A stretch of DNA of 42,059 nucleotides, taken from positions 1-42,059 of IMG/VR virus record IMGVR_UViG_3300025131_005563. One strand, written 5' to 3'. The position numbers were made by a program, and so were the translations under genes. Below are positions 209 to 28,965 of the stretch, piece after piece; positions within the stretch are counted from its first letter, which is position 1; each line of letters begins with the position of its first letter. The DNA comes from a virus. The notes under the pieces were generated by a model that saw nothing but the letters and a program-made list of their open reading frames with translations, searched no databases and had not been told where the DNA came from.

Positions 209-2365
209 ATGAATAAACATACTTTATTTAATACATTATTGAATGAAATAACATCAAGTAATTCGTCCTGGCCATCACAAAATGTAGGTGTTATGGTTAG
301 TTTTGATTATACCACAACAACGATGGCATCTTATGGATATGCAGACCCTGTTGCAGGAACTATATTTGAGAGTGGTAGAGGAGAATCGGAAACAGCAATT
401 ACACCTGCAATGAGACCCGCAGAAGACCACGAACATAAGCTTTATGAAATGAATTCAAATCCATATCATTGGATTAATTCAGCTTCTTTTTATGGTTTTT
501 ATGATAGAATTACAACTTATGTTAGTGAAAGTAATTATGATAATGTTGTATTATTAAAACACGTACGACCTGAAGGTCAAAATCCAAAAGAAGAAGCCGT
601 AACATTGTTTAGTCAAAGTCTTGCAACAAAAGATATTAGTTTAGAGGAAGTTGATTATACATTTTATACAAATACTCATTTAACAGCAGCAAATTCAGGA
701 AGTTTCTATGTATTTCAAGAATCTCCTTACAAACTTGCAAGTGGACTATCACATATCGTTAGTGGTAGTTTTGAAAAAACTGAATTCCGTAGGATTTTGG
801 CATCATCTTCAGTTTCTTCATCATTAATACCACTTTGGGATTCTGATAATCCTACTACAAATGTTTGGGGTCCTGATTATGTTATTAAAAATAATTCAAC
901 TGATAACTCAATGGCCATTGGTGGTCAAATAATTAAAAATTATAGACATACTGGTAGTAATGAGGTAGTGGATACTTACGCCAGTTATACTGGAAATCAA
1001 TATGTTATAGAAGAATTTGTTCTACCTGAGTTTGTATCTGCAAGTTTAGCTTCTGCATCTTCTGCTGCATTTGTTGATAAACTTGATATACCATATGGTA
1101 CGGCAACTTATTTAACAACACCAACGAAAAATATTTTACTAAGAGATGACTGGAGTGGTGGACTTGGTTTAGCGAGAACAAATAGAGTTAAAATGAGTTC
1201 AGATGGTAGTACTTGGAAACAAATATCAACACACCTTTCACGAGTAGTTCCTTCTGGATCATTAGTTAAAACACCAACTGGAACAACGGCAATTATGAAT
1301 GTAGACATTGGTGATACAATTACCTCTTATTTACCCGTTTCACATTCTACTGAAGATTTTGGTTATTTAGATTATTCAACAAATACATTGAGTGGTTCTA
1401 CCGCAGGTACTTCAGAAGTAGTGAATATTACATATGGTAGAGAGTTTACTTATACACAAATTTTTTATGAAGTGGACGGAGATGAGATAATGGTTCGTGT
1501 ATCTACAGAACATGCAAATCTTTTCATAAAAGATGTTGATACTAATTTATGGGGATGGAAAACACCACCATTTTTGAAGGTTGGTGATAAGATGTTGAAC
1601 GCGACTGAACAAGAACTTGAAATCACAAGAATGCTTGAGAGTGTTACGGTAAATGAAGAATATTATGCATTAGATGTTGAGGATACGGATACTTATTTTG
1701 TTGATGGTATATTGATTCATAATGGTAATAAAAAAGGCACTGGATCAGATGGTTCTTATACTTTAAATTACAAAGGAACTGGATGGAGTGGTACGATTCA
1801 ACATAGAGTTTACTCACGTGATGCAAGTTGGGGAGCAAGACAAATATGGGCTAGCGAGGGTGGTGCATTTTGGAACATTCCCAATAATACTTGGAGAACC
1901 TATACTTCCACATACACAACCAACAATGATGGTACAGGAGGCGGATTTGCATCCACAGTTGATGGTGGAAGCTATGATAATGTTGTGGTTTACAGTTATC
2001 ATGGTAATGGATATGCAGATGGTAGTTGGAGTTGGAGTGGTACAATAGCTTATGCTAACAATTGGGGGCCAGCAAGCTATACTGCATACTTTGGTCATTA
2101 TACAAGTGCAGGTACTTCAACATTAACTACAACTTTTAGTAGTGATTACAGAGCAAAAACAGATATGGATTGGATTGGTAAATCTAAATCTGGTCTTAAT
2201 ATTTATGAGTTCTCATATAATTGGGATAAAGATATTCGTTATCAAGGAGTTGTTGCACAAGAACTTTTAAATACTAAATATGAAGATAGTGTGGTTCAAA
2301 TGACTGATGGATATTTAGGTGTAGATTATAGTAAATTGGATGTAGATTTCAAACAGGTTACTTAA
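209..2365 (+). CDS. Tail fibre-like protein with degenerate Hint domain and S74 chaperone domain
   Basis: 718-residue structural-type protein. Residues 1-345 are Ser/Thr/Tyr-rich beta-type sequence with no family I can name. Residues 346-505 look like a Hint (intein/BIL) domain: GSLVKT at 350-355, the DIGD turn at 366-369, S432-x-x-H435 as block B, LKVGD at 456-460, and a C-terminal TYFVDGILIHNG with His504-Asn505 followed by Gly506. The position expected for the N-terminal Cys nucleophile is Val346, so full splicing looks impossible, but Asn505 cyclisation could still cut. Residues 506-640 are Gly/Ser/Trp-rich, tip-like. Residues 645-718 match the S74 intramolecular chaperone: S645-D-Y-R-A-K650 gives the Ser-Lys dyad, then GVVAQEL and GYLGVDYSKL. 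S74 proteins trimerise a fibre and then cleave themselves. An AAGG ribosome site precedes the ATG. The exact virion location is inference. Confidence 0.8.
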   Translation: MNKHTLFNTLLNEITSSNSSWPSQNVGVMVSFDYTTTTMASYGYADPVAGTIFESGRGESETAITPAMRPAEDHEHKLYEMNSNPYHWINSASFYGFYDRITTYVSESNYDNVVLLKHVRPEGQNPKEEAVTLFSQSLATKDISLEEVDYTFYTNTHLTAANSGSFYVFQESPYKLASGLSHIVSGSFEKTEFRRILASSSVSSSLIPLWDSDNPTTNVWGPDYVIKNNSTDNSMAIGGQIIKNYRHTGSNEVVDTYASYTGNQYVIEEFVLPEFVSASLASASSAAFVDKLDIPYGTATYLTTPTKNILLRDDWSGGLGLARTNRVKMSSDGSTWKQISTHLSRVVPSGSLVKTPTGTTAIMNVDIGDTITSYLPVSHSTEDFGYLDYSTNTLSGSTAGTSEVVNITYGREFTYTQIFYEVDGDEIMVRVSTEHANLFIKDVDTNLWGWKTPPFLKVGDKMLNATEQELEITRMLESVTVNEEYYALDVEDTDTYFVDGILIHNGNKKGTGSDGSYTLNYKGTGWSGTIQHRVYSRDASWGARQIWASEGGAFWNIPNNTWRTYTSTYTTNNDGTGGGFASTVDGGSYDNVVVYSYHGNGYADGSWSWSGTIAYANNWGPASYTAYFGHYTSAGTSTLTTTFSSDYRAKTDMDWIGKSKSGLNIYEFSYNWDKDIRYQGVVAQELLNTKYEDSVVQMTDGYLGVDYSKLDVDFKQVT

Positions 2366-2906: not shown

Positions 2907-3095
2907 ATGGCAGATAAAACTACACAATTATTAGAAGAACGCAAAGTAAAAGCATTAGAAAAAATAGCTAATGTTTTGGATGCGTTAACACTTTGGTTTG
3001 AAGATATCGAAAAAGCCGAATGGGGTGATAGACTTGAATGGTACTTATCAGAGTACTATAATAAATATGTAGCCGAAAAAACTGAAGAAGAGTAA
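2907..3095 (+). CDS. Small acidic/helical protein of unknown function
   Basis: 62 residues with a strong AAGGAG site upstream of the ATG. The sequence is charged and probably helical (repeated Glu/Lys heptads in residues 5-35, then a Trp/Tyr-rich segment WGDRLEWYLSEYYNKY). No signal peptide or membrane segment is visible. It is the first gene after the gap with the candidate promoter. Its stop shares one base with the next start (TAATG), so it is probably co-translated with the GT7-LamG protein. I do not recognise a family. Confidence 0.75.
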   Translation: MADKTTQLLEERKVKALEKIANVLDALTLWFEDIEKAEWGDRLEWYLSEYYNKYVAEKTEEE

Positions 3096-4516
3096 TGAAA
3101 CTTGGTGTAATTGTCCCGTATCGTAAACGGCCAACACATCTTAGAAGATTTCGTGAATCTATTGAATCGTATTTAAAAGGCCAAGATTATGAATTAATCG
3201 TAGTTGAGCAAGCAGATGATTTACCATTTAATCGTGGTAAATTATTAAACATAGGGTTTAGAACTGCGTTAAGAAAACAATGTGATTATGTTGTGTTTCA
3301 TGATATTGATATGCTGCCAATTGATGTGGATTATTCTTATTCGGAAGTTCCACTTCATCTTGCAACAAATTTTACTAATTCCAAAAGAGAAATATTTGAT
3401 ACTTACTTTGGTGGAGTAACTTTATTTCCAGTAGATTTATTCAAAAGAGTAAATGGATACTCTAATGAATATTGGGGATGGGGATTTGAAGATGATGATT
3501 TACTTTTACGATTAACCGAACAAAATGTATTTACTGATTTTGATATTTATGAAGTACCAAAAGAAAATACTGCAGGTTTATATATACATGGAGATGAAAG
3601 TTATATAGAATGTAAAAATATGATTGACATTCATGAAGATTTTACTATTCATTGTACTTTTAAACCAGATGAAATAATACCTGATTATGATAAGTCGTTT
3701 GATGAAATGTGCGTATTTAGTATTCCAGGCTGGGATACAACGATATGTTACAATTCATTTAATCGTTATAAATTTGAGTGTTGGGATATTGGTAAAGAGT
3801 GTCATCAAATCACTTCCGATTATAGTTATCCAAGATTAACAAAAATTACCGTAACATATAGTAAATCAAATCGTATGTTAAAAATGTATCAAGATGGTAA
3901 GTTGGTTGGAAAGAAAACAATAACAAGAAAAATATTTAATTCTCATCAAGAAAATTTCTATATTGGTATAGCATCAGTTGAAAGAGAAGATGATAGAAAA
4001 AGTTTTCGTGGATTCGTTAGTGATTTTGCATATTGGAATAAATCATTGGCAAAAAACGAAGTAAAAGAACTTCATGATAGTTTTGGTATGAGTTATTTAT
4101 GTGATATGAATCAATACAATAGTTCAAATAACTTAAAGATTTATTATGATTTCAAACATATTAAATTAAATAATTCTTATCAATATGAAAAAGGTAAAGT
4201 AGTTAATTTAGTAAATCAACGACATTTTGGAACACTATATAATTCAATTCCAAAATTACAAAAAGAATTAGAACAAAAAAGAATATCTATTCCTGTCAGA
4301 AGAAGCAGTAAGTTTAAAATGATAAAACACACACCAGAAGGTTATTTGGAAGGTGGTTGGAAAACAGAATCTACAAGATTGAATCAAATACGGTTTTATA
4401 ATCAAATATTAGAAAACAAATCTAATCTTACATCAGATGGACTTACTACACTTAAATTTAAAACAATTTCAAAAACAAATCAAGAAAAATATACATTTAT
4501 TTCGGTGGAGTTATGA
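3095..4516 (+). CDS. GT7 (beta-1,4-galactosyltransferase-like) with an inserted LamG-like domain, copy 1
   Basis: 473 residues. The N-terminal part (1-~155) has the hallmarks of family GT7: VPYRKR at the start, FNRGKLLNIGF near 45-55, the metal-binding H69-D-I-D72 motif and W127-GWGFEDDDL-136. The family's Mn-binding M-x-x-H appears only at M409-I-K-H412, followed by RLNQIRFYNQ and a C-terminal TSDGL-x-x-LKF...YTFISVEL like the end of animal B4GALT enzymes. Between them, residues ~160-395 have a LamG/concanavalin-like pattern (FTIHCTF, QDGKLVGKK, FYIGIAS, GFVSDFAYWNKSL). So a carbohydrate-binding-type domain sits inside the catalytic domain. It probably transfers a hexose from a UDP-sugar; donor and acceptor are unknown. 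It overlaps the next gene by 4 nt. Confidence 0.8.
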   Translation: MKLGVIVPYRKRPTHLRRFRESIESYLKGQDYELIVVEQADDLPFNRGKLLNIGFRTALRKQCDYVVFHDIDMLPIDVDYSYSEVPLHLATNFTNSKREIFDTYFGGVTLFPVDLFKRVNGYSNEYWGWGFEDDDLLLRLTEQNVFTDFDIYEVPKENTAGLYIHGDESYIECKNMIDIHEDFTIHCTFKPDEIIPDYDKSFDEMCVFSIPGWDTTICYNSFNRYKFECWDIGKECHQITSDYSYPRLTKITVTYSKSNRMLKMYQDGKLVGKKTITRKIFNSHQENFYIGIASVEREDDRKSFRGFVSDFAYWNKSLAKNEVKELHDSFGMSYLCDMNQYNSSNNLKIYYDFKHIKLNNSYQYEKGKVVNLVNQRHFGTLYNSIPKLQKELEQKRISIPVRRSSKFKMIKHTPEGYLEGGWKTESTRLNQIRFYNQILENKSNLTSDGLTTLKFKTISKTNQEKYTFISVEL

Positions 4517-5934
4517 AGTTAGGTATTTGTATTCCATATAGAGATATTGGTGATGGTGTTAGAAAAAAACATTTAGATACTTTGATACCACACTTAGAAA
4601 AGTTTCTTGGTGAGAAAGGTATAGAGTTTAGATGTTATATTGGACACCAAGTTGACGAAAATAAGTTTAACCGAAGTGGTACGAAGAATGTTGCATTTCT
4701 TGCAGCTAAAGAAGATGGGTGTGATTATGTATGTTTTCATGATGTAGATATGTTACCACAAGATGATTGTGATTACTCACATCCTGGTGATACACCTAAA
4801 CATATTGCAACTTGGTTATCTCAATGGGATAATACATTAAGAGATATACATTATTTTGGTGGAGTAGTGATATTCACTATAGAACAATTTGAAAAAGTTA
4901 ACGGATATTCAGCAGATTATTGGGGTTGGGGATTTGAAGATGATGATTTGTTTTGGAGATGTATAAGAAAAGGATATTTTAAACCAGAATATATTGAATC
5001 TCCAGGAAGTACAAAAGTTTTACAATTTGATGGAGTGGAAACACACATTAAAATTCCAATCACAAATAGTATAATGAATATACCAAATAAATCTTGTGAG
5101 ATAGAAGCAATTGTACATTCAGAAATAGAAAGTGAAGATAAAGAATTTTTAATTGGTAATGAAGTAGGACATTTAAAATATCCAATAGTATCCAGAAAAG
5201 GTTGGGATTTCGATATATCGTATAATAACTCTAAAGCATTTTCTTATTGTTTATGGGGAGTTAAAAATGAATTAAATTATGGTTGGATGATGAGATATCC
5301 AAATCAATGGAGTAAAGTTAATTTCAAAGTTGATACTCGAATGCAAGAAAGAACAATTACTATTAATGATGAGTTGTATGATGAGAAGTTTGGCCCACAA
5401 AAATCAATATTACCATTTGAGGGTAGATTGAAACGATATGGAACTACACCATTTTATATTGGAAAGAATCCACCAAATAGATATGATCCTATGAGAGATA
5501 GAAATCGTCCATTTAAAGGTAAGATGTATTCGATAAAAATGTGGAATTATAAAAATGAATTAGTATTACATTATGATATGAGTAAGTCTTGGAGAAGAGA
5601 TAAATTATTAGATTTAAGTGGTAATGAAAATCATGGTGAATTAATACTTGGTAAAGGAAGAATTACCAAAGATAATGTACAGATAGCAAAAACAATTACA
5701 CCCGATAGAAGATATGGTACGATGGAATGTATGTATCATGATGATGAGGGTATAGTTAATCAGAGTTTTGCAGGAGACCCTGAACAAACTTCTGTAAATG
5801 AAATATTTTATAAGAAAGAAATGCAAAAAGAAAAAGTTAATATAGAAGAAAATGGTTTAAGTGAAATGAAATACAAAATAGTATCTAAAGATAATATTTA
5901 TAATAGACATAAGTTAATTAATGTGAGGTTTTGA
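4513..5934 (+). CDS. GT7 (beta-1,4-galactosyltransferase-like) with an inserted LamG-like domain, copy 2
   Basis: A tandem paralogue of the previous gene, also 473 residues, starting in an ATGA overlap. It keeps the GT7 signatures: IPYRDIG at the N-terminus, FNRSGTKN near 52, H76-D-V-D79-M, and W137-GWGFEDDDL-146. The M-x-H metal-loop equivalent is M407-Y-H409, and the protein ends NGL-x-x-MKYKIVSKDN...LINVRF. Residues ~165-395 form the LamG-like insertion, with STKVLQFDGVETHIKI, FYIGKNPPN and YSIKMWNYKNELVLHYDM, plus a LDLSGNENHGEL stretch typical of LamG_3-type domains. Divergence from copy 1 is high, so the duplication is old or the copies were acquired separately. It may act on a different acceptor. 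Activity is inferred from motifs only. Confidence 0.8.
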   Translation: MKLGICIPYRDIGDGVRKKHLDTLIPHLEKFLGEKGIEFRCYIGHQVDENKFNRSGTKNVAFLAAKEDGCDYVCFHDVDMLPQDDCDYSHPGDTPKHIATWLSQWDNTLRDIHYFGGVVIFTIEQFEKVNGYSADYWGWGFEDDDLFWRCIRKGYFKPEYIESPGSTKVLQFDGVETHIKIPITNSIMNIPNKSCEIEAIVHSEIESEDKEFLIGNEVGHLKYPIVSRKGWDFDISYNNSKAFSYCLWGVKNELNYGWMMRYPNQWSKVNFKVDTRMQERTITINDELYDEKFGPQKSILPFEGRLKRYGTTPFYIGKNPPNRYDPMRDRNRPFKGKMYSIKMWNYKNELVLHYDMSKSWRRDKLLDLSGNENHGELILGKGRITKDNVQIAKTITPDRRYGTMECMYHDDEGIVNQSFAGDPEQTSVNEIFYKKEMQKEKVNIEENGLSEMKYKIVSKDNIYNRHKLINVRF

Positions 5935-7388
5935 TGGCAGATAAAGAAAAAGGTTATAAAACGAGAACCTATTTAGAAAAAGATGCACCACATCTTGTTG
6001 AGACCAAGACTAAGTTAGATAAGGTTGGTAAAGGTATGTGTTTAGCAAAATGGACACAATCAACAATCCATTTGCAACTTGGTCATACGCATAGTTGCCA
6101 TCACCCAAGAACTCACAAAATTTCAACAAAAGAGATTGCACGAAATCCAAGTGCACTACACAATACTCAATATAAAAAACTTCGTAGAAGAGAGATGTTA
6201 AATGATAAACGACCACCCGAATGTGAGTATTGTTGGAATGTAGAAGATAGTTCAGAGAGATTTAGTGATAGAGTATTTAAATCAAGTGAGAGTTGGAGTT
6301 TACCACATTACGATGAAATTGTAAATGCAGATTGGAGAGAGGATTTTAATCCAAGATATGTAGAGGTTGCTTTTTCAAATGCTTGTAATCAAAAATGTAG
6401 TTATTGTGGGCCAGCATTTTCATCTACTTGGATGGATGAGATAAACAATCATGGTGGTTACAAAACTACTACAGGGTTTAATGACCCAAGAGGTTTAGTT
6501 GCAGAAAGTAAAGTTCCAATTCCACATAGAGATTATAATCCATATGTAGGGGCATTTTGGAAATGGTGGCCAGATTTGTATCAAGATTTACACACATTTA
6601 GAATTACAGGTGGAGAACCATTATTAGCAAAAGATACATTTAAGGTATTAGATTATATCATAGAACATCCTAATCCAAATCGTAATTTAAGTTTTGCAGT
6701 CAATTCAAATTTAGGTGGACCACCACAATTAATTGATAACTTTTTAGAAAAGATGAAACGAATCGAAGATGAGGATAGAGTAAGAGAGTTTATTTTTTTT
6801 ACATCAGTTGATACCTGGGGAGAACAAGCAGAATATGTTCGTAATGGATTAGATTTTAATTATTTTTGGGATAATTGTCATAAAGTATTAACTACATTAC
6901 AAAGATGTAATTTAACATTTATGTCAACATATAATGCATTATCAGTTCCAAGTTATAAAAAACTTATCAATGGAGTTTATAAATTAAAAGAAGATTACTC
7001 ATCATTAGATAGATATTGGAATTCAGCAACATTTTTAGATTCAAGTTATCTTAGATATCCACAACATCAGACAGTCCAAGTTTTACCAATGAAGTGGTCA
7101 ACAGAAATATTACAACAAGCACAATTACTCGATTATTATGCATTACCAGTATTTGAACATATGTACACAGGTTACTCGGATATTGAGATTCAAAAAGTTA
7201 AGAGAATATATGATTGGATGTTATCAAGGAATTTTACTAAATTGAGAGATGATGAAGTATTAAAAAGAAATAGACATGATTTTGGTATATTTTTTAAAGA
7301 ACATGATAAAAGAAGAAGAACAGATTTTTGTAAAGTATTTCCTGAGTTAGCTGATTTTTATCACAAATGTTTGGAGATTAAGTTATGA
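5934..7388 (+). CDS. Radical SAM protein with N-terminal twitch-type Fe-S domain
   Basis: 484 residues from the ATG at 5934, which overlaps the previous stop in TGATG. The core cluster motif is C151-NQK-C155-SY-C158 (CxxxCxxC), preceded by a YVEVAFSNA strand and followed by a TGGEPLL motif. Ahead of it, residues 36-100 hold C36-x13-G50-x4-C55 and C97-EY-C100, the spacing of a SPASM/twitch auxiliary cluster. That domain normally lies C-terminal to the radical SAM barrel, so here the order is reversed; N-terminal-twitch radical SAM proteins are a recognised group. The reaction is unknown, but most relatives modify peptides or small metabolites. Its place between GT7-LamG and LamG genes suggests a carbohydrate or protein-modification role (inference). 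Confidence 0.85.
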   Translation: MADKEKGYKTRTYLEKDAPHLVETKTKLDKVGKGMCLAKWTQSTIHLQLGHTHSCHHPRTHKISTKEIARNPSALHNTQYKKLRRREMLNDKRPPECEYCWNVEDSSERFSDRVFKSSESWSLPHYDEIVNADWREDFNPRYVEVAFSNACNQKCSYCGPAFSSTWMDEINNHGGYKTTTGFNDPRGLVAESKVPIPHRDYNPYVGAFWKWWPDLYQDLHTFRITGGEPLLAKDTFKVLDYIIEHPNPNRNLSFAVNSNLGGPPQLIDNFLEKMKRIEDEDRVREFIFFTSVDTWGEQAEYVRNGLDFNYFWDNCHKVLTTLQRCNLTFMSTYNALSVPSYKKLINGVYKLKEDYSSLDRYWNSATFLDSSYLRYPQHQTVQVLPMKWSTEILQQAQLLDYYALPVFEHMYTGYSDIEIQKVKRIYDWMLSRNFTKLRDDEVLKRNRHDFGIFFKEHDKRRRTDFCKVFPELADFYHKCLEIKL

Positions 7389-8104
7389 GAATAGATGATC
7401 CGTTATTTATTACTACAAAACACAAGAGTGATTTAAGTACATATGAAGTTTTTTCAATTATGGAAGGGAATGTTACTTTTTGTGCAAGAATTAAACCAGA
7501 TTGGGATAAGTTTAAGTGTGATGAAGATGTTGGTGTGGTTATTAAAAATGGTAAACACGCAGGTATACAATTATCAAAAAATGAACTTGGAGAGGGGTTT
7601 TTAAAAGGCATACTTTGGGTTACTAATGAAGAGAAAGGTGATTATCCAGTCCAAGTGTTTAATAATGTTGGTATAGTACCAAACGATGATTGGTGGGATG
7701 TAGCATTTAGATGTGATTTAGAAAAGAAAGAAATATCTATTATGGTTAAAAAAAGAGATTGGGATGGACCATATACTGAATCTATAAAGTTTGATGGTGA
7801 ACCAGTTGATTATACAGAGGGATGGTTATGGGTTGCTTGTAATAATGCATTAGAAATGACACCCGATGAAGATAAAGGATTCTATAATGGTGAGATAGAT
7901 AAATTTGGTGTGTTTGGAAAGGCGTTGAATGAAACAGAGTTTGTAAAGTTTTTCAATAATGATTTTGTTTTAGAAGATTGGAAAAAAGATAAACCAATAG
8001 CAGTATGTACTTTTGATAAGAGAACACCATATAAGTTTTGGGATGAATCTATGAATGGTAATTACTTAATAGTGTACCGACCAGAATGGGGAGATTTATT
8101 TTGA
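7385..8104 (+). CDS. Stand-alone LamG/concanavalin A-like protein
   Basis: 239 residues, starting in an ATGA overlap with the radical SAM gene. The pattern of alternating strands (EGNVTFCARIKPDWDKF, DVGVVIKNGKHAGIQL, DWWDVAFRCDLEKKEISIMV, GWLWVACNN) and the ending FYNGEIDKFGVFGKALNETEF are typical of a LamG-like jelly roll, where the last helix-like turn follows 'G.id.f.v...aL...E'. It resembles the insert in the two GT7 proteins upstream. No catalytic motif and no signal peptide is visible. A glycan-binding or scaffold role beside the glycosyltransferases is plausible. It may be a free copy of the domain that was inserted into the GT7 genes, or the other way round. Confidence 0.6.
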   Translation: MRIDDPLFITTKHKSDLSTYEVFSIMEGNVTFCARIKPDWDKFKCDEDVGVVIKNGKHAGIQLSKNELGEGFLKGILWVTNEEKGDYPVQVFNNVGIVPNDDWWDVAFRCDLEKKEISIMVKKRDWDGPYTESIKFDGEPVDYTEGWLWVACNNALEMTPDEDKGFYNGEIDKFGVFGKALNETEFVKFFNNDFVLEDWKKDKPIAVCTFDKRTPYKFWDESMNGNYLIVYRPEWGDLF

Positions 8105-9894: not shown

Positions 9895-10543
9895 ATTAAT
9901 TATTTTTGATTTAGATGGTGTATTGGTAGATGCAAAAGAAATACACTATGAGGCACTTAATAAAGCACTTTCCAATATTGATGAGAAGTATGTTATCAAT
10001 AGAGAAGAACATCTATCTACATATGATGGCAACACTTCAATTACAAAGTTAAATCTTTTAACAAAAAATAAAGGATTACCTTATGAATTACACGATACAA
10101 TTTGGGAAGATAAACAAAACATAACTATCCAAATGATTGATGAATTAGAGAAAGATGAAAGATTGATAAAGGTTTTAAAACAATTAAAAGATGAAGGATA
10201 CATACTTGCATGTGCTACTAATTCAATTCGTGATAGTGCAAAACTACAATTAATTCGTAGAGGATTTTTAGAACATTTAGATTTTGTTTATTCTAACCAA
10301 GATGTTATAAATCCAAAACCATATTCAGAAATATATTTAAGGTGTATTATAAAAGCAGGAGTAAACACAAAAGAAACAATTATATTGGAGGATTCTGATT
10401 TGGGTAGAGAGGGTGCACGACAGACAGGTGCATATGTTTTAGATATTGAAGATTCAAGTGATGTTACTTATGAAAAAATTAAAAACTTTATAAACGAGTG
10501 GGATTATATAAGTGAGAGGATTTATGATAGCATTAACGGATAG
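9887..10543 (+). CDS. HAD-superfamily phosphatase/phosphomutase-like
   Basis: 218 residues with all four HAD motifs. Motif I is FDLDGVLVD with nucleophile D8 and acid D10. Motif II is ACATNS. The motif III lysine is in VINPKP. Motif IV is ILEDSDLGREGA. The helical cap after motif I (EIHYEALNKAL) places it with beta-phosphoglucomutase-like, subclass I cap enzymes. These act on sugar phosphates or phosphoglycolate, so a role in activating or recycling a sugar phosphate for the glycosyltransferases is reasonable. It starts in the GGAGATTATAATGA cassette and overlaps both neighbours. Confidence 0.85.
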   Translation: MIKLIIFDLDGVLVDAKEIHYEALNKALSNIDEKYVINREEHLSTYDGNTSITKLNLLTKNKGLPYELHDTIWEDKQNITIQMIDELEKDERLIKVLKQLKDEGYILACATNSIRDSAKLQLIRRGFLEHLDFVYSNQDVINPKPYSEIYLRCIIKAGVNTKETIILEDSDLGREGARQTGAYVLDIEDSSDVTYEKIKNFINEWDYISERIYDSING

Positions 10544-11789
10544 TTTTAATCAAGTTAGTATGCATGACCCATCACAAGATATAATTGATGTATATAAACA
10601 CATACCTGAAATAACTGAAAAAGATAATCGTGGTGAAACTATATGTAGACCTTTATTCTCACATTCAAGTTTACCAAACACTTTAGATTTAGATGAAGTT
10701 GAAGTAGATGATTTTGATTTTAAATCTGAATTTAGTTATTTTGTTTATGTTCATCATAATCAAGAATTGTGGACAAAACATTTAGATTTAATTCCTAAAA
10801 AAGTTTTGGATGGAGTTAGAAGTGGTAAAGGTAAACTTATATTTGATAATAGTTTAGAGGGAGAGAGAATTGATGGTAGATTTTTTATAAATCCATTTTA
10901 TGAAAGTATTGATAAGTTAAACTTACCAACAGAAAACATTTATTTTATTACAAATAATTTGATTGCAGAAAAAACTCATAATGAATATAATAGAAAAGAT
11001 AAAATAAATGTAATATCAATAATGTGGAATGTATTTGATGTTCAACGATTGAAAAAATTAAAACATTTACCTAATAAAATTAATCTCCCAAATGAATTAG
11101 ATTATAAAGAAATTAATTCTACTAAATACTTTTTAAAAATCAATAGAACAAATAGAGTTGAAAGAGATTTATTTATGATGTTTTTAAATTTTGAAAAACT
11201 ACTTGATAAATGTTTAATTAGTTTTCCAGAATTATATATAGAGAAAAATTATCCAAATCAATTTTACAAATACACACAGCAAGAAAACATTAATGATTTA
11301 AAATCAAAACTACCATTTGATATTGATGAAACAGATGAAACAAATCAAGGGCCCGCAGGATATGGTGAGGGATTTTTTAATGCAGATTTACCATTTCAAC
11401 CAATACATTATAAAAATTCTTTTATTAGTATTGTGATGTGTGCGTTTCCATTTGAAAAAAATGCATATCACTTACATAGTTCGACATTTAATCCTATGTA
11501 TTGTGGACATCCAATAATACAATTTGGCCCACATAAAACATTAGAAGTTATGAAAGAATATGGATTTAAAACATTTAATAAATGGTGGGATGAAAGTTAT
11601 GATGATGAAAAAGATGATTGGAAAAGATTAAAAATGATTATGGATTTAGCTTTAAAAATATCTAAAATAGATAATAATATATTGTTGGGAATATATAAAA
11701 ATATGAAAGATGTTTTACAACACAACATCAATGTAATAGAAAATTATGATATAAAAACAAATTTATATGATAGGATATATAATGATTAA
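10524..11789 (+). CDS. Conserved-looking protein, possible glycosyltransferase
   Basis: 421 residues from the ATG at 10524, which has a GAGAGGA site only 3-4 nt away; an in-frame GTG at 10512 would add four residues. I do not recognise a family with certainty. Visible features are an N-terminal DPSQDIIDVY region, a central IYFITNNL and FLKINRTNRVERDLFM, and a C-terminal HSSTFNPMYCGHPIIQFGP followed by YGFKTFNKWWDESYDDE. The last block resembles exostosin-like or GT-B glycosyltransferase ends, in which a donor-binding loop is followed by a helix and an acidic WWDE segment. It is soluble, with no signal peptide. It sits between a HAD phosphatase and a sulfotransferase, which fits glycan chemistry. 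Confidence 0.55.
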   Translation: MIALTDSFNQVSMHDPSQDIIDVYKHIPEITEKDNRGETICRPLFSHSSLPNTLDLDEVEVDDFDFKSEFSYFVYVHHNQELWTKHLDLIPKKVLDGVRSGKGKLIFDNSLEGERIDGRFFINPFYESIDKLNLPTENIYFITNNLIAEKTHNEYNRKDKINVISIMWNVFDVQRLKKLKHLPNKINLPNELDYKEINSTKYFLKINRTNRVERDLFMMFLNFEKLLDKCLISFPELYIEKNYPNQFYKYTQQENINDLKSKLPFDIDETDETNQGPAGYGEGFFNADLPFQPIHYKNSFISIVMCAFPFEKNAYHLHSSTFNPMYCGHPIIQFGPHKTLEVMKEYGFKTFNKWWDESYDDEKDDWKRLKMIMDLALKISKIDNNILLGIYKNMKDVLQHNINVIENYDIKTNLYDRIYND

Positions 11790-12357
11790 TCACGAACATA
11801 AATTTATTTTTATTCACATACCAAAATGTGCAGGTATGTCAATTGGTAGAACTCTTTATAATTTAGTTGGTAAAGACCCAAAAACCTACGAGGGTTTTAA
11901 AATACATCACGATGAGTTTGATGAAAACATTTGGAAAGAATATTTTGTTTTTACTTTTCTTCGTAATCCACTTGATAGATTATATTCACAATATCGTTAT
12001 AGAGATTTTTTATATCAACACGATTTTGAATATGCTGTAAAAAATATGAAAGAATTATTTATACAACAATATTCTTATAAAGAACCAGGCACACATCCAA
12101 CAAACGGAAGTATAATGGATATTGTTAATAATTATGGTGAGTGGATACATTATCCAGGCCAAAGACAATTTTTAAACGGACAATATAGTAACGGAATAGA
12201 TAAAAGACCATATATAGATTTTTATGGTAAGTATGAAACACTACAAGAAGATTTTGATTATGTTTGTGAAAAAATAGGATTACCACAAACAAAATTATTA
12301 CATGAAAATAAATCGAATAACGAAAAGGATTTAGATTATGAACGAAAATTACTTTAA
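11782..12357 (+). CDS. Sulfotransferase (family 2-like)
   Basis: 191 residues from the ATG at 11782 (AGGA 6 nt upstream), preferred over an in-frame ATG at 11767. The 5'-phosphosulfate loop is H12-I-P-K15-C-A-G-M-S20. The 3'-phosphate motif is LR61-NPLDRLYS69-QY. These bind PAPS, and the enzyme would move a sulfuryl group to a carbohydrate hydroxyl. The C-terminus has LLHENKSNN, the family's HxNKS element, but ends shortly after it without the HYxxYY tail seen in the fragment at the left window edge, so it is slightly short. It overlaps its neighbours on both sides. Phage sulfotransferases next to glycosyltransferases suggest sulfated glycans. Confidence 0.8.
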   Translation: MINHEHKFIFIHIPKCAGMSIGRTLYNLVGKDPKTYEGFKIHHDEFDENIWKEYFVFTFLRNPLDRLYSQYRYRDFLYQHDFEYAVKNMKELFIQQYSYKEPGTHPTNGSIMDIVNNYGEWIHYPGQRQFLNGQYSNGIDKRPYIDFYGKYETLQEDFDYVCEKIGLPQTKLLHENKSNNEKDLDYERKLL

Positions 12358-12718
12358 TGGTAAATATAATATAATTAAATCAGATATGTCATTTAAGGAT
12401 GAAGTATTTCGAATTAGAAAACAAGAATTAGATAATGATGAAGTTTTTTCAGGTAATTTAATATTAAATAAAGAATTTAAAAATTTAGATTATGAAAAAA
12501 TATATTCATTACCATTAGATGATAAATCAATTTATGTTAAGGATTTTGAAAATTCACCACATGCAAATCAATGTAGTGTTGATGATAGTATTATGTATTG
12601 TGGTTCTTTTGTACTTTGGTTATTAGGTAACTTTGATAGAAATGATTATTCACTTTATGCAAATTTACGAAGACATGGAATAGTGTTAAGAAGAATTACT
12701 GATGAGGTATTAAAATGA
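12338..12718 (+). CDS. Unknown protein, 126 residues
   Basis: An ATG inside the end of the sulfotransferase gene gives 126 residues; its stop overlaps the next ATGA. No family is recognisable. It is acidic and rich in Asp/Asn/Tyr, with a short Cys-containing middle (QCSVDDSIMYCGSFVLWLLG) that could be a small hydrophobic helix but is too short for a membrane protein, and a basic end (LRRHGIVLRRITDE). An in-frame stop lies directly before its start, so it is not simply the frameshifted continuation of the sulfotransferase. Coding is supported by tight coupling to both neighbours. Confidence 0.6.
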   Translation: MNENYFNGKYNIIKSDMSFKDEVFRIRKQELDNDEVFSGNLILNKEFKNLDYEKIYSLPLDDKSIYVKDFENSPHANQCSVDDSIMYCGSFVLWLLGNFDRNDYSLYANLRRHGIVLRRITDEVLK

Positions 12719-13503
12719 GAATGGCAGTTTGTTTAAGTGGTCAATTGAGACAATGGGAATTAGCATTAGATAATCAAAAATGGTTTTGGGAAAGTTCAAA
12801 AGCAGCTGGTGTGGAACAAATAGATTATTTTATTCATACTTGGAATTATAGTGGTGATAGAGAGGGAGTATCACAACCATATGTTATGAGAAATGTGAAT
12901 GATGATGAATTTGAAAAAATTTGTTCTGAATATGAAGTTAAAGGTTCTATCTATGATACTAAACCATCAAGTTGGTTTTATGATAATGACCATTGGAGTG
13001 CATTATTTTATAGTTTTGCACAATCAGTAATGTTAAAAAGAAAATATGAATTAGAAAATAATTTTGAATATGATGTGGTAGTAAAATCAAGACCAGATGT
13101 AGTATTTAATCCAAAGATGGGTTGTTGTTTCGAAACATTATGGGATAATCAGTTGTTTACTTGTCATGGTGGTGAAATGGAACATGAGTTTGGGATGTTT
13201 AATCTTGATGATTGTGTATTTTATTCAAATTCTTATACTATGGATTTATTAGTTAATATGTATTTTTATCGTCAAAAGTTAATTGATATTAGAGATATGA
13301 GTGTAGAAAAACTATCAACTCAACAACTTGGGCCTGGAGTATTGATGCATGAATATTGTAGAGAATATGGAATTACACCAATCTGCACAGGAGACTTTTT
13401 ACCAACATTATTAAAACTTGGTTGTCCTACTGATTTAGATTTATTTAAACCTAAAGATTTTAATAAAATAGAAAAACATTTTAGGGCATTTTACAAAACA
13501 TGA
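12715..13503 (+). CDS. 'SGQ-R / TW' family protein 1, putative glycosyltransferase
   Basis: 262 residues, ATGA overlap. First of four proteins in the window sharing a layout: a first beta strand with CLSGQLRQW, then DYFIHTWNY about 40 residues later, a helix with KYELENNFEYD, and KSRPDVVF around residue 125. The order (strand, Gly-rich turn, D-x-F-x-x-TW, Y-D-x-V-x-x-R-P-D) fits a GT-A-like Rossmann nucleotide-sugar fold in which the R-P-D replaces a DxD. Function is inferred from layout only. The C-terminal part (GPGVLMHEYCREYGI, PTLLKLGCPTDLDLF) is not shared with the paralogues and may recognise a specific acceptor. Confidence 0.55.
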   Translation: MRMAVCLSGQLRQWELALDNQKWFWESSKAAGVEQIDYFIHTWNYSGDREGVSQPYVMRNVNDDEFEKICSEYEVKGSIYDTKPSSWFYDNDHWSALFYSFAQSVMLKRKYELENNFEYDVVVKSRPDVVFNPKMGCCFETLWDNQLFTCHGGEMEHEFGMFNLDDCVFYSNSYTMDLLVNMYFYRQKLIDIRDMSVEKLSTQQLGPGVLMHEYCREYGITPICTGDFLPTLLKLGCPTDLDLFKPKDFNKIEKHFRAFYKT

Positions 13504-14387
13504 AAATAGGAATATATATTTGTTCAAATGGTTACGGACATTTTCATAGAATATTACAAGTATGTTCAAACTTACCTTATTATGATATTGATATCTATTG
13601 TGAACGATATCAGTATAATAGATTTAATCCACAACTACCAAATTTAAATTTTATTTTTTATGATGAATCTAATATACGATGGGATAAAAAAGAATTTGGT
13701 TCACTTGATGTAGGTGATATAGATAAATATGATAAAGTAATTACAGATAATTTAGTTGAAGTTTTAAAATATAGACCAGATGCAATCTATAGTGGTTCTT
13801 TTTTATGGAGTGATGTTTGGAGAGATAGGTTTGGTGATAATAAATTTTCAGATGAACAAGATAAAATATTTCATGATGTTAAACCAAAAGTTATTTGTAA
13901 TGGTGATGTGGTGTTTGGACAATTAAAAGATTATGAAAATAAAATTGATATTGGATGGGGATGTAAAGATGACTTTAAGGATATAAAGGATTTTAATTTA
14001 GATACTATTGTTTGTGTTCCACCATCTTTAAATCATACTGATGAATATACAGAAAAGTTTTTAGAAATACGAGAAGATTATCAGAATGATTTTAATTTTA
14101 GTTTTAATTTAAATCATACGGAAAATTCACTTTTTGTTATTAGACCTGGATTAGGAATGATAACCACTTGTGTTTCTAAACGAATACCAATTATTGCTTT
14201 ATGGGCAGATGAGGATTCAAGTGAAATAAAACATCTAGCAAAAAGAGTAGAAGAATTGGGTATTGGTAGGAGATTAAATGTATATGATGATTTTGAACTA
14301 CCAATGAATATAGATGAATGTAGAGAATCATTTAAGAAATTAAAGTTGAATGGTTATAAGAAATTTGCGAGGTTATTAAACATATGA
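13500..14387 (+). CDS. GT-B glycosyltransferase-like (MurG/GT28-type)
   Basis: 295 residues, ATGA overlap on both sides. The N-terminal G11-Y-G-H14-F-H-R17 loop after a first beta strand is the classic 'GxGHxxR' of GT28/MurG-like enzymes. The C-terminal half has VIRPGLGMITTCVSKRIP followed by IIALWADEDSSEIKHLAKRVEELGIG. This matches the donor-binding loop (G-G-x-x-T, then a P and an E/D-x-x-N-A segment) of GT-B UDP-sugar transferases. It is short (usual 350-400), so the linker and acceptor domain are reduced. It probably transfers a sugar to a lipid, protein or glycan acceptor in the cytoplasm. Confidence 0.65.
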   Translation: MKIGIYICSNGYGHFHRILQVCSNLPYYDIDIYCERYQYNRFNPQLPNLNFIFYDESNIRWDKKEFGSLDVGDIDKYDKVITDNLVEVLKYRPDAIYSGSFLWSDVWRDRFGDNKFSDEQDKIFHDVKPKVICNGDVVFGQLKDYENKIDIGWGCKDDFKDIKDFNLDTIVCVPPSLNHTDEYTEKFLEIREDYQNDFNFSFNLNHTENSLFVIRPGLGMITTCVSKRIPIIALWADEDSSEIKHLAKRVEELGIGRRLNVYDDFELPMNIDECRESFKKLKLNGYKKFARLLNI

Positions 14388-15250
14388 TATATGCAAATTG
14401 TGATATGAATCCAATACAAGGTGAAAAATTTCAAGATTTATGTACTACACAGATTAGTAAACTGGAACATAAATCATTTGAGTTAAAAGATGCAATCTCA
14501 ATAGATGTAGATGATTTTGACTTTACTGATTATGATAATTCAGAATTGGTTTATTGTAATAGTTCATTATTGAATGCAGATAAACCTAAATTAATAGAAT
14601 CAAAGTTGTATGAGAAGTTAGAACAATTAAAAAATCCATTTAAGTTAGTGTTACATAATTCAGATGATAATTTTAATGAGGAACAATTAAAATATTTGAA
14701 TATACCAAATTGTAAAAAAATATATACTCAAAATATGAACATATATCATAAAGATGTTTTACCTTTACCAATTGGGATAGCAAATAGTTTTTGGAAGTGG
14801 GGTAATTTAGATATTTTTGAAGGGGTTTTGAATACTGATATAGATATAAAATCAAATTTTATTTATGTAAATTTTACAAAAACAGGTGGTGTTCGTGATG
14901 AAAATAGATTAGAATGTTATGAAAATGTAGAAAAACAAAATATACCATTTGTTGATAATATGGAATATGAAGATTATCTCAATACTTTAAAAACTTATAA
15001 ATATTGTATATCACCAGAAGGTAATGGTATTGATTGTTATAGAACTTGGGAATCACTTTATTTAAAGGTTGTTCCTATTTGTAAGAGAAGTGTAATGGTT
15101 GAATATTTTTCAACAATATTTCCAATATTTATAGTTGATACTTGGGATAATTTAGATATAAATTGTTTGGAAAAACAATACGATAGTTTTAATTGGGATA
15201 ATTGGCATTTATTAGATTTTGAAACATATTGTAAATGGATGGGATTATAA
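14384..15250 (+). CDS. Exostosin-like glycosyltransferase
   Basis: 288 residues, ATGA overlap. The middle has KLVLHNSDDNF, IYTQN and LPLPIGIANSFW, then YVNF. The C-terminal half has KTYKYCISPEGNGIDCYRTWESLYLKVVPICKRS. The SPEGNG-x-D-x-x-R-x-WE-x-L-x-x-x-x-(V)P-(I/V) pattern is the donor-binding motif of exostosin/GT47-like enzymes. It lacks the N-terminal membrane anchor of eukaryotic exostosins. It is likely a GT-B enzyme using a nucleotide sugar. The product is unknown. Confidence 0.65.
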   Translation: MIYANCDMNPIQGEKFQDLCTTQISKLEHKSFELKDAISIDVDDFDFTDYDNSELVYCNSSLLNADKPKLIESKLYEKLEQLKNPFKLVLHNSDDNFNEEQLKYLNIPNCKKIYTQNMNIYHKDVLPLPIGIANSFWKWGNLDIFEGVLNTDIDIKSNFIYVNFTKTGGVRDENRLECYENVEKQNIPFVDNMEYEDYLNTLKTYKYCISPEGNGIDCYRTWESLYLKVVPICKRSVMVEYFSTIFPIFIVDTWDNLDINCLEKQYDSFNWDNWHLLDFETYCKWMGL

Positions 15251-16068
15251 TGATTTACTCATTTGGAGATAGTTTTACTGCAGGACTTGGTGTTGATAGA
15301 GAATATGAAACTTCTCAATTAGGTGGTCATCCAGATTGGGATGTTATGACGGATGATGAAAAGAATGCCCAACGAAGTAAAGTAGAAAGATTTAGAAATA
15401 AAAATTCTTATACTGCTCACTTTGCTCGCAAGGTCAATATAGGTTATTCAAACAAAGGACAATCAGGTTGTTCTAATATTGATATTTTAAATTTAATATT
15501 TGAATATGGAGATAATTTTAAACAAGGTGATATAGTTTTTGTAGGATTTACTTCTTCACTTAGAAATCCAATATCATTTTTTCCACGCAAGTTTTCTGAA
15601 TCAGAATGGAAATTAGCACCAAATTTAGATGTGCTAAAAGATTTTACCACACTTAAAGTAAATAAAAATATGCTAGAACTTTACACAGAAGAATCTATGT
15701 CATTTTTTCAAGATTACTCTAAGTTTTATTTAACAGAAATGTTTGATGAACAATATTATGAAATAGTAAATTACAACATAATAGTATTTTTACAGAAATA
15801 TTTTGAGTATAAGAAAGTAAATTACATAATGTTAGATGCTTTTGATTATATGGTTAATAAAAATTACAAACACATTGATACAAAATATTATTGGAGTTTT
15901 AATAAAGAAACTATTTATTCTTATATAGTAAGTTTTAATGATGAAGGTTTATTAGAATTAGGTGGTTATAATCCATACAACCAAGCACCACGACATCCAA
16001 GTATCGAGGGACATAAAATTTTGGCAGAAGAACTTTATAAATTTTATAAAAAGGTATATAATGGTTAA
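15250..16068 (+). CDS. SGNH/GDSL hydrolase-like protein 3, block V Asp missing
   Basis: 272 residues from the ATG at 15250, which shares one base with the preceding stop and has GGGA 5 nt upstream; an in-frame ATG at 15235 is less likely. Block I is F5-G6-D7-S8-F, then GYSNKGQSGCSNIDIL gives a Gly/Asn oxyanion segment. GDIVFVGFTSSLRN matches the strand and loop seen in SGNH 1 and 2. In block V the His is present (A246-P-R-H249-P-S-I-E-G-H), but the Asp normally three residues before it is Ala246. The enzyme may work as a Ser-His dyad, as some SGNH members do, or may have lost activity. Confidence 0.65.
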   Translation: MIYSFGDSFTAGLGVDREYETSQLGGHPDWDVMTDDEKNAQRSKVERFRNKNSYTAHFARKVNIGYSNKGQSGCSNIDILNLIFEYGDNFKQGDIVFVGFTSSLRNPISFFPRKFSESEWKLAPNLDVLKDFTTLKVNKNMLELYTEESMSFFQDYSKFYLTEMFDEQYYEIVNYNIIVFLQKYFEYKKVNYIMLDAFDYMVNKNYKHIDTKYYWSFNKETIYSYIVSFNDEGLLELGGYNPYNQAPRHPSIEGHKILAEELYKFYKKVYNG

Positions 16069-16867
16069 CTATTGGTTTGATACATTTAAACATTTGAAAC
16101 CTTTTGATATAGTACCATATCAAGAGATGGTTGATTTATATTTAAAAAATCAATCATTATTAGAAAAAAGTGGTAGAGAAAAACTTGGTGGTGATAATGA
16201 ACGACCAGTAAATTCTGATGTAGAAGAGGTTGACCACAAAGGTTTTTGGTTAGGATATAATCCAAGATATTATAATATAGACCCGTTGGGTGATAAGGTT
16301 ACACAGGCAAAGGCAGATGTGGTATCAATGGATATGACTGGTGTGGGTAAAACTTGGGATGATTTTATTTACTTAGAACTACCAAGTTGGTTATTCAACA
16401 AATATCAAACTGCAGTTCATTCTAATCGTGATGTAAGTTACTTTAGAAAGTTTATGTGTGATGTTGATAAAACAGATTTAACAAGAGATAGTGTACTTAA
16501 ACTAAAAGATGAATATGATAAAAAATATAAAGATGTTGGAAAGTATGTAGATTACTTTGGTGATTTTAATGACCCTGCATGGAGATTAGATTTAGATGTT
16601 TCTCAGTATATTTCTATAAAAACACAAGGGTTGATTTATCCAATTATGTTTAATAGTAAAAAACATGCCTTTAGTAGAGGTACACATCGAGCATTATTCT
16701 TGGCCCATACTGGTAGTGATGTTCCTTTTGTAATGCAATATCCTAAGAAAAGAAAGAGATGGCAAATTGAATTAGCAGAAAACTTTGATGAACAGAATGT
16801 AATAATGAAAGTTAATTTAAAAGAAAAATCTTTGAAGTTTTATAGAGATGATGAAGAATTAATATGA
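16061..16867 (+). CDS. ParB/sulfiredoxin-like domain protein 1
   Basis: 268 residues from the ATG at 16061, preceded by AAGG; a longer reading to 15962 would run through the SGNH gene. The N-terminus (NYWFDTFKHLKPFDIVPYQEMVDLY) is shared with the protein at 17806. Near residue 210-235 it has IKTQGLIYPIMFN, then SRGTHRALFLAHTGSDVPFV, which resembles the ParB/Srx box in which a G-x-H-R follows a 'G-l-x-x-P-i' strand and precedes a second 'vPv' strand. ParB-like folds bind nucleotides or DNA and some are nucleases or CTPases. What it does in a glycan island is unknown. The C-terminal segment has a Lys/Arg-rich stretch. Confidence 0.5.
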   Translation: MVNYWFDTFKHLKPFDIVPYQEMVDLYLKNQSLLEKSGREKLGGDNERPVNSDVEEVDHKGFWLGYNPRYYNIDPLGDKVTQAKADVVSMDMTGVGKTWDDFIYLELPSWLFNKYQTAVHSNRDVSYFRKFMCDVDKTDLTRDSVLKLKDEYDKKYKDVGKYVDYFGDFNDPAWRLDLDVSQYISIKTQGLIYPIMFNSKKHAFSRGTHRALFLAHTGSDVPFVMQYPKKRKRWQIELAENFDEQNVIMKVNLKEKSLKFYRDDEELI

Positions 16868-17514
16868 AAACATTAGCAGGAATTATACACGCAAGAAAAG
16901 ATAGTACGAGATGTCCAAATAAACATTTACGACCATTGGGTAATACAACATTGATTGATATAGCCTTGGAAAATTTAAGTAAGTTGGATGTGGATGAAAA
17001 GTATCTTGCAGTGTATGACCAAGAATTAAAAGATAAAGTTATTGATGGTGTTAAAATACTACATAGAGATTATGATTCAGTTGCACAAGGTAATTGTCAT
17101 CATTCAATTTATTATAAACATTTAAATAATGTGGAATCTGAATTTATTGTAAATTATAATCCATGTCAACCATTTTTACAAGTGGATAAATTGAATGAAT
17201 GTATTAGAATTTTTAAAGAAAGTAGAATGAAAAGTATGATTACAGTCAAGAAAGAAAGAAATTTCTTTTGGGATAAACATCAAAATCCAATAAACTTTAA
17301 ACCTAATGATAGATTATCCACTACTGCAGGGCCTTGGGTTTATTCTGCAACACATTCGTTAGTTTTTTATGAAAAAAATTATATGTTAACGGAGTGGGAA
17401 TTATTTCCAAATATAAAAGATAATCCATTTCCATATGTAGTGGATTGGAGTGAAAAGGAATTATTGGATGTAGATACAGAAACCGATTTTAATATTGTGA
17501 GGCAATTAATATGA
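16864..17514 (+). CDS. CMP-sugar synthetase-like cytidylyltransferase (NeuA/KdsB-type)
   Basis: 216 residues, ATGA overlap. The N-terminal IIHARKDSTRCPNKHLRPLG (residues 7-26) matches the nucleotide-binding R-x-G-S-x-R-x-P-x-K-N loop of acylneuraminate and KDO cytidylyltransferases, with Asp13 in place of the usual Gly. VNYNPCQPFLQ resembles the 'l-q-P-T-x-P' substrate loop. The end VDWSEKELLDVDTETDF matches the family's 'D-i-D-t-x-x-D' metal site. It should activate a sugar acid as its CMP form, or a related alditol phosphate. A NeuB-type remnant lies at 25439, so a nonulosonate pathway is possible. No transporter or mutase is visible. Confidence 0.75.
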   Translation: MKTLAGIIHARKDSTRCPNKHLRPLGNTTLIDIALENLSKLDVDEKYLAVYDQELKDKVIDGVKILHRDYDSVAQGNCHHSIYYKHLNNVESEFIVNYNPCQPFLQVDKLNECIRIFKESRMKSMITVKKERNFFWDKHQNPINFKPNDRLSTTAGPWVYSATHSLVFYEKNYMLTEWELFPNIKDNPFPYVVDWSEKELLDVDTETDFNIVRQLI

Positions 17515-17819
17515 AATATGTTATAGATATAGATGGAACAATTTGTAAAGAAGAAGGTAAGGTTATAGGAAGAAAACCTTATAAAGATAGAATTGCAAAA
17601 ATAAATAAGTTGTATGATGAAGGACACACAATAGTTTTCTATACTGCTCGTGGATTAAAAAGTGGTAGAGGAGAAAAACATTATCGTCCAATCACAGAAC
17701 AACAATTAAAAGAGTGGGGAGTAAAATATCACGAGTTGTGTTTTAAAGGACACAACGGAGATTACTTCATAGATGATAGTGGAATAAATGCAAAGGAGTT
17801 TTTTAGTGAAGAGTTATAA
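17511..17819 (+). CDS. Small HAD-type phosphatase, capsule-locus type
   Basis: 102 residues, ATGA overlap. IDIDGTIC is HAD motif I (D5 and D7), TARGLKSG is motif II, and GDYFIDDSG is motif IV. The TEQQLKEWGVKYHEL stretch between them is typical of small HAD proteins often found in polysaccharide biosynthesis loci, usually annotated as capsular biosynthesis HADs. There is no cap domain, so it probably acts on a large or easily accessible phosphate ester. Its place directly after the cytidylyltransferase mirrors bacterial KDO and heptose loci, where a phosphatase dephosphorylates the sugar-acid intermediate. Confidence 0.8.
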   Translation: MKYVIDIDGTICKEEGKVIGRKPYKDRIAKINKLYDEGHTIVFYTARGLKSGRGEKHYRPITEQQLKEWGVKYHELCFKGHNGDYFIDDSGINAKEFFSEEL

Positions 17820-18492
17820 GAATAATTCAGTTAAATGGTGGACAAATGTATGGGAAGATGTTAAACCATTTGATATTTTAACTAATCAAGAAGTATATCA
17901 AAAATATATTGATGTAGTAGATTCAATAGAAAGTTATGTGATTACTCTATCTGATGTAAAAACACAAAAGAAAATTAGAAATTGGAATAGAATTGATGAG
18001 GGTTCACCTGCAGATATTGTAAAACGAAATAAAAATCGTGATAGTATATATATTCCAATACCATATCAGTTTTATGAAGATTATATGACAGATTGGTTAA
18101 ACACTAAAAAAATTTTTGAACTATCTTTACAAGATTTAAAAACTCATATAAAAAATAATACTAAGTGGTCATTTGATGGTAGTGATGATGCAAGAAGTTA
18201 TAATGTGTATAAAACATATAAAGATTATGGAGTAGCAAATCCAGTCTTTAATAATGGAGAAACATATCCTAAACGAAGCACACATATAACTGCATATTGT
18301 TTTTTAAATAAAAGTGATGTACCAATTTTATTTAAAAGACCAGAAAATAATATAAATAGATTTTTGGTACAACCAAAAACAGAAGAATTACCATATTTTA
18401 AAGGTAAGTATTTAACTTTAGATATAGATATTAAAAACAAATTAGTAAATTTCTTTTTAGAGAACGAACATATAGGAGTGTACAAAGGATGA
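17806..18492 (+). CDS. ParB/sulfiredoxin-like domain protein 2 (GTG start, Arg lost)
   Basis: 228 residues. The GTG at 17806 has an excellent AAGGAG site (17793-17798, 7-nt spacer) and gives an N-terminus (SVKWWTNVWEDVKPFDIL) that aligns with the protein at 16061; an ATG at 17788 lies upstream of that site. A matching core occurs near residue 150-180: YKDYGVANPVFN, then PKRSTHITAYCFLNKSDVPIL. Where copy 1 has G-T-H-R, this copy has S-T-H-I, so the Arg of the ParB-like box is gone. It is probably an old paralogue, possibly changed or inactive. It overlaps the small HAD gene by 14 nt and the next gene by 4 nt. Confidence 0.5.
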   Translation: MKSYKNNSVKWWTNVWEDVKPFDILTNQEVYQKYIDVVDSIESYVITLSDVKTQKKIRNWNRIDEGSPADIVKRNKNRDSIYIPIPYQFYEDYMTDWLNTKKIFELSLQDLKTHIKNNTKWSFDGSDDARSYNVYKTYKDYGVANPVFNNGETYPKRSTHITAYCFLNKSDVPILFKRPENNINRFLVQPKTEELPYFKGKYLTLDIDIKNKLVNFFLENEHIGVYKG

Positions 18493-20058: not shown

Positions 20059-20080
20059 CATTTGTAATTAGGATATTTAA

Positions 20081-28961: not shown

Positions 28962-28965
28962 TAGA

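Follow-up and report, generated by a model that had tools for sequence, protein, structure and literature searches.

The DNA analysed here, a window of 42,059 nt from an uncultivated T4-like phage (record IMGVR_UViG_3300025131_005563), encodes two adjacent proteins of 473 aa each, here called A and B, whose reading frames overlap by ATGA. By sequence comparison, each is a GT7 glycosyltransferase whose single GT7 domain is interrupted by a true insertion, a LamG domain that lies just ahead of the metal-binding His and the mobile loop. The two are ancient paralogues in which the insert is never missing, and they belong to a cassette of a 62-aa protein, A, B, a twitch radical SAM protein and a stand-alone LamG protein, which follow one another in that order in the window (Table 1). 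GT7 and LamG are each known, and the nested form and the cassette appear to be undescribed.

The terminase and portal of the source phage matched phage head-and-packaging families. Its portal was 52-56% identical to the portals of Flavobacterium phage immuto and Microcystis phage Mel-JY01 and also resembled, at greater distance, T4-type portals.

Table 1. Cassette genes and domain boundaries, in window coordinates
Feature	Positions	Strand	Evidence
62-aa helical-looking small protein, first cassette gene	2907..3095	+	homologue directly upstream of A in 88/104 non-redundant A-B loci
GT7-LamG protein A, 473 aa	3095..4516	+	Pfam GT7N/GT7C/Laminin_G_3; AF2 pLDDT 93.3, pTM 0.87
A: GT7 core part 1, aa ~1-150	3095..3544	+	DxD D70/D72, Tyr104, E132-D133
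A: inserted LamG/ConA-like domain, aa ~151-399	3545..4291	+	PF13385 1e-10; Foldseek 4dqa, pentraxin 1sac; hhalign 4.6e-24
A: GT7 C-terminal part, aa ~400-473	4292..4513	+	metal His412, Asn430, DGL 448-450; profile match to bacterial GT7s, best 1.1e-9
GT7-LamG protein B, 473 aa	4513..5934	+	Pfam GT7N/GT7C; AF2 pLDDT 92.6, pTM 0.88
B: inserted LamG/ConA-like domain, aa ~161-396	4993..5700	+	Foldseek 4dqa 4.8e-9; hhalign to stand-alone LamG family 2.3e-17
B: GT7 C-terminal part, aa ~397-473	5701..5931	+	C406-x-x-H409, Asn429
Twitch-domain radical SAM protein	5931..7388	+	NCBIfam NF033640 N_Twi_rSAM 3.2e-98; after B in 103/104 loci
Stand-alone LamG protein, same domain unit as A/B inserts	7385..8104	+	Laminin_G_3 9e-4; LamG-like gene this size after radical SAM in most loci

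GT7 identity and the position of the LamG domain

Pfam placed both halves of the GT7 profile (PF13733 and PF02709) within the first ~155 residues of A (GT7N 2.8e-18, GT7C 6.9e-17) and of B (1.4e-15 and 3.8e-17), and the GT7N/GT7C bit scores of 66.3/61.3 for A and 57.5/62.1 for B exceeded the curated cut-offs of 27/23, identifying both as GT7 members. The motifs located were HDIDM (69-73), WGWGFEDDDL (127-136), M409-I-K-H412 and DGLTTLKF (448-455) in A, and HDVDM (76-80), WGWGFEDDDL (137-146), C406-M-Y-H409 and NGLSEMKY in B. A sequence-only reading of this DNA had put the GT7 motifs in the N-terminal third of the two tandem proteins, which the profiles and motif positions confirm, and had given both a C-terminal DGL end, which is found in A but reads NGL in B. 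Among solved structures, phmmer matched A to human B4GALT1 (3.9e-26) and B to B4GALT7 (9.4e-24), the main match covering only the first ~155 residues in each case; the last ~40 residues of A gave a faint second match, in the correct order. Consistent with this, a profile of the family matched the B4GALT1 core (5e-49) and, through its positions 423-469, the C-terminus of that chain, whilst positions ~160-350 gave LamG-type matches to an S-layer protein, sialidases and pentraxins.

The metal site of B4GALT1 consists of Asp254, Met344 and His347 (PMC7565966). Of the M-x-(x)-H loop ascribed earlier to these proteins, the His proved general (66/67 A, 63/63 B), whereas the Met was variable in A and replaced by Cys in 63/63 B; the Met-containing M-x-x-H signature of GT7 is thus not conserved as a whole, its His being retained. 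As the Met is also lacking in most of the bacterial GT7s shown, its loss is not decisive for GT7 membership. The DxD, the ED pair, the metal His and the Tyr at the donor-selecting position (Y289 in B4GALT1) were all intact in 65 of 67 A and 63 of 63 B proteins. We take this Tyr, present in 66/67 A and 63/63 B, to suggest Gal as donor, and UDP-Gal would be the donor for both enzymes.

Within A, Pfam called Laminin_G_3 at residues 169-324 (1e-10). B itself received no LamG call from Pfam, and there the LamG is assigned from its relatives, by profile-profile comparison and from the structure model; across 96 relatives, Pfam detected both GT7 halves in all 96 and LamG in 89. Profile match and jelly-roll fold together assign the insert to the LamG/ConA-like superfamily, the profile also matching pentraxins and the lectin-like N-terminal domains of sialidases. 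The stretch between EDDDL and the conserved Arg in RxGxFxxLxH measures ~270 residues in A compared to ~18 in one bacterial GT7, and in both A and B ~250 residues separate the end of the EDDDL helix region from the R...F...H element, a spacing that corrects an earlier estimate of 230 inserted residues to ~250 aa.

A scan of bacterial genomes recovered 24 GT7 proteins of 192-419 aa (mostly 192-293), all without LamG, in which WGWGxEDxDLxxRCxxxGxxxxxRxGTFxxLxH...DGL ran unbroken. We scored a profile of the viral post-LamG segment against the post-core segments of these 24 proteins and the C-termini of 2,764 unrelated ORFs, and 19 of the 24 ranked above all 2,764 controls (best E 1.1e-9). This match to unbroken GT7s places the LamG inside one GT7 domain and rules out an end-to-end union of unrelated GT7 and LamG domains with a chance C-terminal resemblance. 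The earlier proposal of a LamG-like domain within GT7, upstream of the metal/acceptor loop, is therefore upheld by Pfam, by the C-part profile test and by the models described below. Frameshift, chimera and assembly artefact were likewise ruled out, the architecture recurring in ~250 distinct proteins from many metagenomes. Uninterrupted viral GT7s of ~204-259 aa occurred at 37 loci; these were found with an alignment query, a single bacterial GT7 query of viral contigs having given nothing usable.

AlphaFold2 models built from family alignments were of high confidence for both proteins (Table 1). Foldseek aligned the A core with B4GALT1 (3.9e-13, 1.8 A over 150 columns) and the B core with B4GALT7 (1.9e-13, 2.0 A), and aligned the inserts of A (8.7e-11) and B with 4dqa, a putative carbohydrate-binding protein from Bacteroides; the A insert also matched pentraxins (1sac; SAP TMt 0.71). 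The middle region is accordingly a jelly roll, as had been predicted. In the A model, strand 148-153 continues directly into the first strand of the LamG domain; at the other end, strand 394-399 is followed by strand 406-409 and then the metal His. A GT7 fold assembled from both ends around the jelly roll had also been proposed, and Foldseek supports its N-terminal ~150 residues, to which the GT7 alignment is confined, the C-part falling outside. Covarying pairs were ~3 times denser between core and C-part than between core and LamG, a modest, weak signal at Neff 165; taken with homology and model confidence, it suggests that the C-part packs into the GT7 core.

In common with the vertebrate and insect enzymes B4GALT1 and B4GALT7 (CAZy GT7), A and B have a GT-A core, FNRxKLLNxG, DxD, YFGGV, WGWGxEDDD, the metal His and a C-terminal DGL with two strands, but they carry ~250 aa of LamG before that His, have no membrane anchor or stem, and do not conserve the Met of MxxH (Cys in B). 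Uninterrupted bacterial and viral GT7s (e.g. L087, L090, L212 and L218) have the same core and C-part, but are as a rule 192-293 aa long, without insert and not beside 62-aa, radical SAM or LamG genes. Laminin_G_3/ConA-like domains such as 4dqa, the pentraxins and sialidase N-terminal domains share the jelly-roll fold and the profile match, whereas the LamG of A and B is nested inside a transferase. The sugar transferase ppGalNAc-T also bears a carbohydrate-recognition domain, of ricin type, but it is joined at one end of the catalytic domain rather than inserted into it.

Family, paralogues and selection

Scans of viral contigs returned at least 589 relatives. The first two scans, in which ranking favours full-length relatives, gave 260 distinct viral proteins with a cassette-type core, of which all 253 complete ones had both LamG and C-part, the other seven being short and most of them at contig ends. 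In a tree of 144 proteins, clades A (n = 67) and B (n = 63) were joined by a less common third clade, C (n = 14). A maximum-likelihood tree set all inserted and all uninterrupted proteins on opposite sides of one weakly supported split (bootstrap 52), from which a single insertion event is likely.

The LamG was the least conserved part, with mean identity of 34% compared to 60% in A and 41% compared to 68% in B. Wherever computable, in comparisons of close relatives, dN/dS was below 1 in core, LamG and C-part, so that both copies are kept by selection, in agreement with the earlier argument from two divergent copies to function.

Clade C differed at the catalytic residues, the ED pair being altered in 11 of 14 members (Glu replaced or otherwise changed) and all six residues intact in 1 of 14. 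Its members sit upstream of A (e.g. L041:4213-5703, L026:4233-5723 and L064:3790-5277); two have lost the DxD, LamG is kept, and they are possible pseudo-enzymes. Bacterial GT7 cores were 32-54% identical to A. The single-domain GT7s of two Chlamydiae-related bacteria, Parachlamydiaceae HS-T3 (L087) and Simkania (L089), share 53-54% identity with the phage protein in the core, an unusually high value for bacterial relatives.

The conserved cassette and its genomic setting

Adjacent A-B pairs were found at 104 non-redundant loci, in over a hundred further phages from the environment. The A-B junction was -4 or -1 nt at 87 of the loci; the flanking 62-aa and radical SAM genes recurred at 88 and 103 of them (Table 1). 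The radical SAM protein scored 329.4 bits to NF033640 against a curated cut-off of 170, which makes it a member of N_Twi_rSAM. The 62-aa protein has the conserved core EERKVKALEKIA...WFEEIDKDEW...YL and matched nothing in NCBIfam or among isolate phages; as it is highly conserved and without a variable core, a role as peptide precursor was set aside. A 62-aa or radical SAM gene lay within 3 kb at 20 of 26 inserted loci compared to 0 of 37 uninterrupted viral GT7 loci.

Most loci had a gene of 190-310 aa after the radical SAM gene, and 71 of the 92 distinct ones were LamG by profile. This stand-alone family aligned with the A and B inserts end to end over 205 columns (hhalign; E values in Table 1), including the tail motif (Y/F)DF...DxSGNxN. 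At five loci, one or two LamG domains were N-terminal on the radical SAM protein (L012:8828-10930, L034:8831-10930, L030:8849-11650, L040:8815-11637 and L068:8827-11649). Inserts and stand-alone domains formed separate groups in a LamG tree, so the sharing is ancient, and the tree does not support a recent transfer of the adjacent LamG gene into the GT7s.

In the window, a GNAT-like gene and a tail-fibre-like protein lie upstream of the cassette, and sulfotransferase, nucleotidyltransferase, aminotransferase, HAD and GDSL genes lie downstream. Upstream of the cassette at other loci were GT-A transferase-like (145 loci), methyltransferase-like (136) and GT-B-like (69) families, assigned by motif from sequence reading rather than by profile. 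These surroundings look like a glycan-building region beside tail genes. The tail-fibre-like protein of the window (209-2365; 718 aa) has a weak HINT-type (self-processing) region at residues 391-505, its C-terminus matches a virion structural family, and it may be a fibre that cleaves itself. The overlapping genes at 10512-24779, which include the sulfotransferase, two nucleotidyl/cytidylyltransferases, the aminotransferase, a second radical SAM/SPASM protein and several proteins without a Pfam match, resemble a glycan or small-molecule pathway. Further downstream, a 1501-aa protein (28936-33441) has as its sole match a small cytidylyltransferase-like region at residues 173-252. Profiles indicated no lipid-carrier or flippase system in the scanned set, which would favour a protein or virion target.

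A translated search of 50,697 isolate phage records revealed no relative of A (two queries), the radical SAM protein or the 62-aa protein, and a DNA-level search was likewise empty. Nor did searches of the open-licence literature reveal a description of a GT7-LamG protein. The earlier remark that no described phage example was known agrees with what these records and that literature returned. In a structure search of BFVD, LamG and GT7 matches were separate, none of the matches listed being shown with both.

Possible roles of the LamG domain

A and B would be metal-dependent, inverting GT-A galactosyltransferases of the GT7 (beta-1,4-galactosyltransferase) type. In each, a complete LamG jelly roll would occupy the beta-turn that links the strand behind the WGWGxEDDD helix to the strand on which the metal-binding His sits. 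Each enzyme is predicted to fold as one GT7 domain from which the lectin-like domain projects beside the mobile loop. The LamG is most likely a shared recognition or docking module: since it also occurs alone and on the radical SAM protein, the cassette enzymes are probably guided to one common glycan or glycoprotein, which they would assemble or alter one after another, with A and B attaching consecutive or distinct residues. The gene neighbourhood makes a structure of the phage tail or surface the likeliest substrate. We give about an even chance to the reading as a whole, of two galactosyltransferases with a shared LamG docking module that directs the enzymes of the cassette to one substrate, probably associated with the virion. 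Counting against it, LamG is common in marine phage structural proteins, and its reuse within one cassette could be opportunistic.

A stronger form, in which one LamG would act as universal docking tag for the two galactosyltransferases, some radical SAM enzymes and a free protein, all serving a single modified substrate, is tentative and rather doubtful. It draws on RiPP recognition elements, in which one small domain occurs alone or fused to several enzymes of a cassette. Their fold is different and no precursor peptide was identified in the present cassette; the likeness is one of analogy only.

The sequence-only reading had instead cast the LamG as a glycan sensor that binds the acceptor sugar and gates closure of the mobile loop, permitting transfer only on the right glycan. 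In B4GALT1, the acceptor site is formed when the flexible loop closes over donor and metal (PMC4202792), and an insertion point just before the metal His (PMC7565966) and this loop would suit such a sensor, as would the profile matches to pentraxins and lectin-like sialidase domains. The same LamG, however, also occurs alone and N-terminal on radical SAM proteins, where the GT7 loop is absent, and a shared docking or recognition module accounts for this no less well than would an allosteric sensor confined to that loop; we regard the sensor as unlikely.

Equally unlikely, in our judgement, is a multi-enzyme complex in which LamG modules associate with one another or with the 62-aa protein, the stand-alone LamG acting as hub. 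By analogy, pentraxin-like jelly rolls oligomerise, SAP is among the structural matches, and LamG is present in at least three proteins of one operon of near-constant gene order, although the jelly-roll likeness to pentraxins is at the level of fold only. Least probable is a tolerated passenger, a common phage domain taken up by a surface turn and now providing just bulk or stability, which would fit the low conservation of the LamG and the abundance of LamG domains in these phages, but not its loss in 0 of 253 complete viral cassette proteins (a sampling that favours full-length relatives), the purifying selection acting on it, or its retention even in degenerate C copies.

The GT7 fold, most familiar from Golgi enzymes of animals, can thus accommodate an entire lectin-like domain next to its metal/acceptor loop, and retains it. 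The analysis also defines a widespread modification cassette of uncultivated phages, comprising a 62-aa protein, two GT7-LamG enzymes, a twitch radical SAM protein and LamG, which could be a source of soluble galactosyltransferases that carry their own acceptor recognition.
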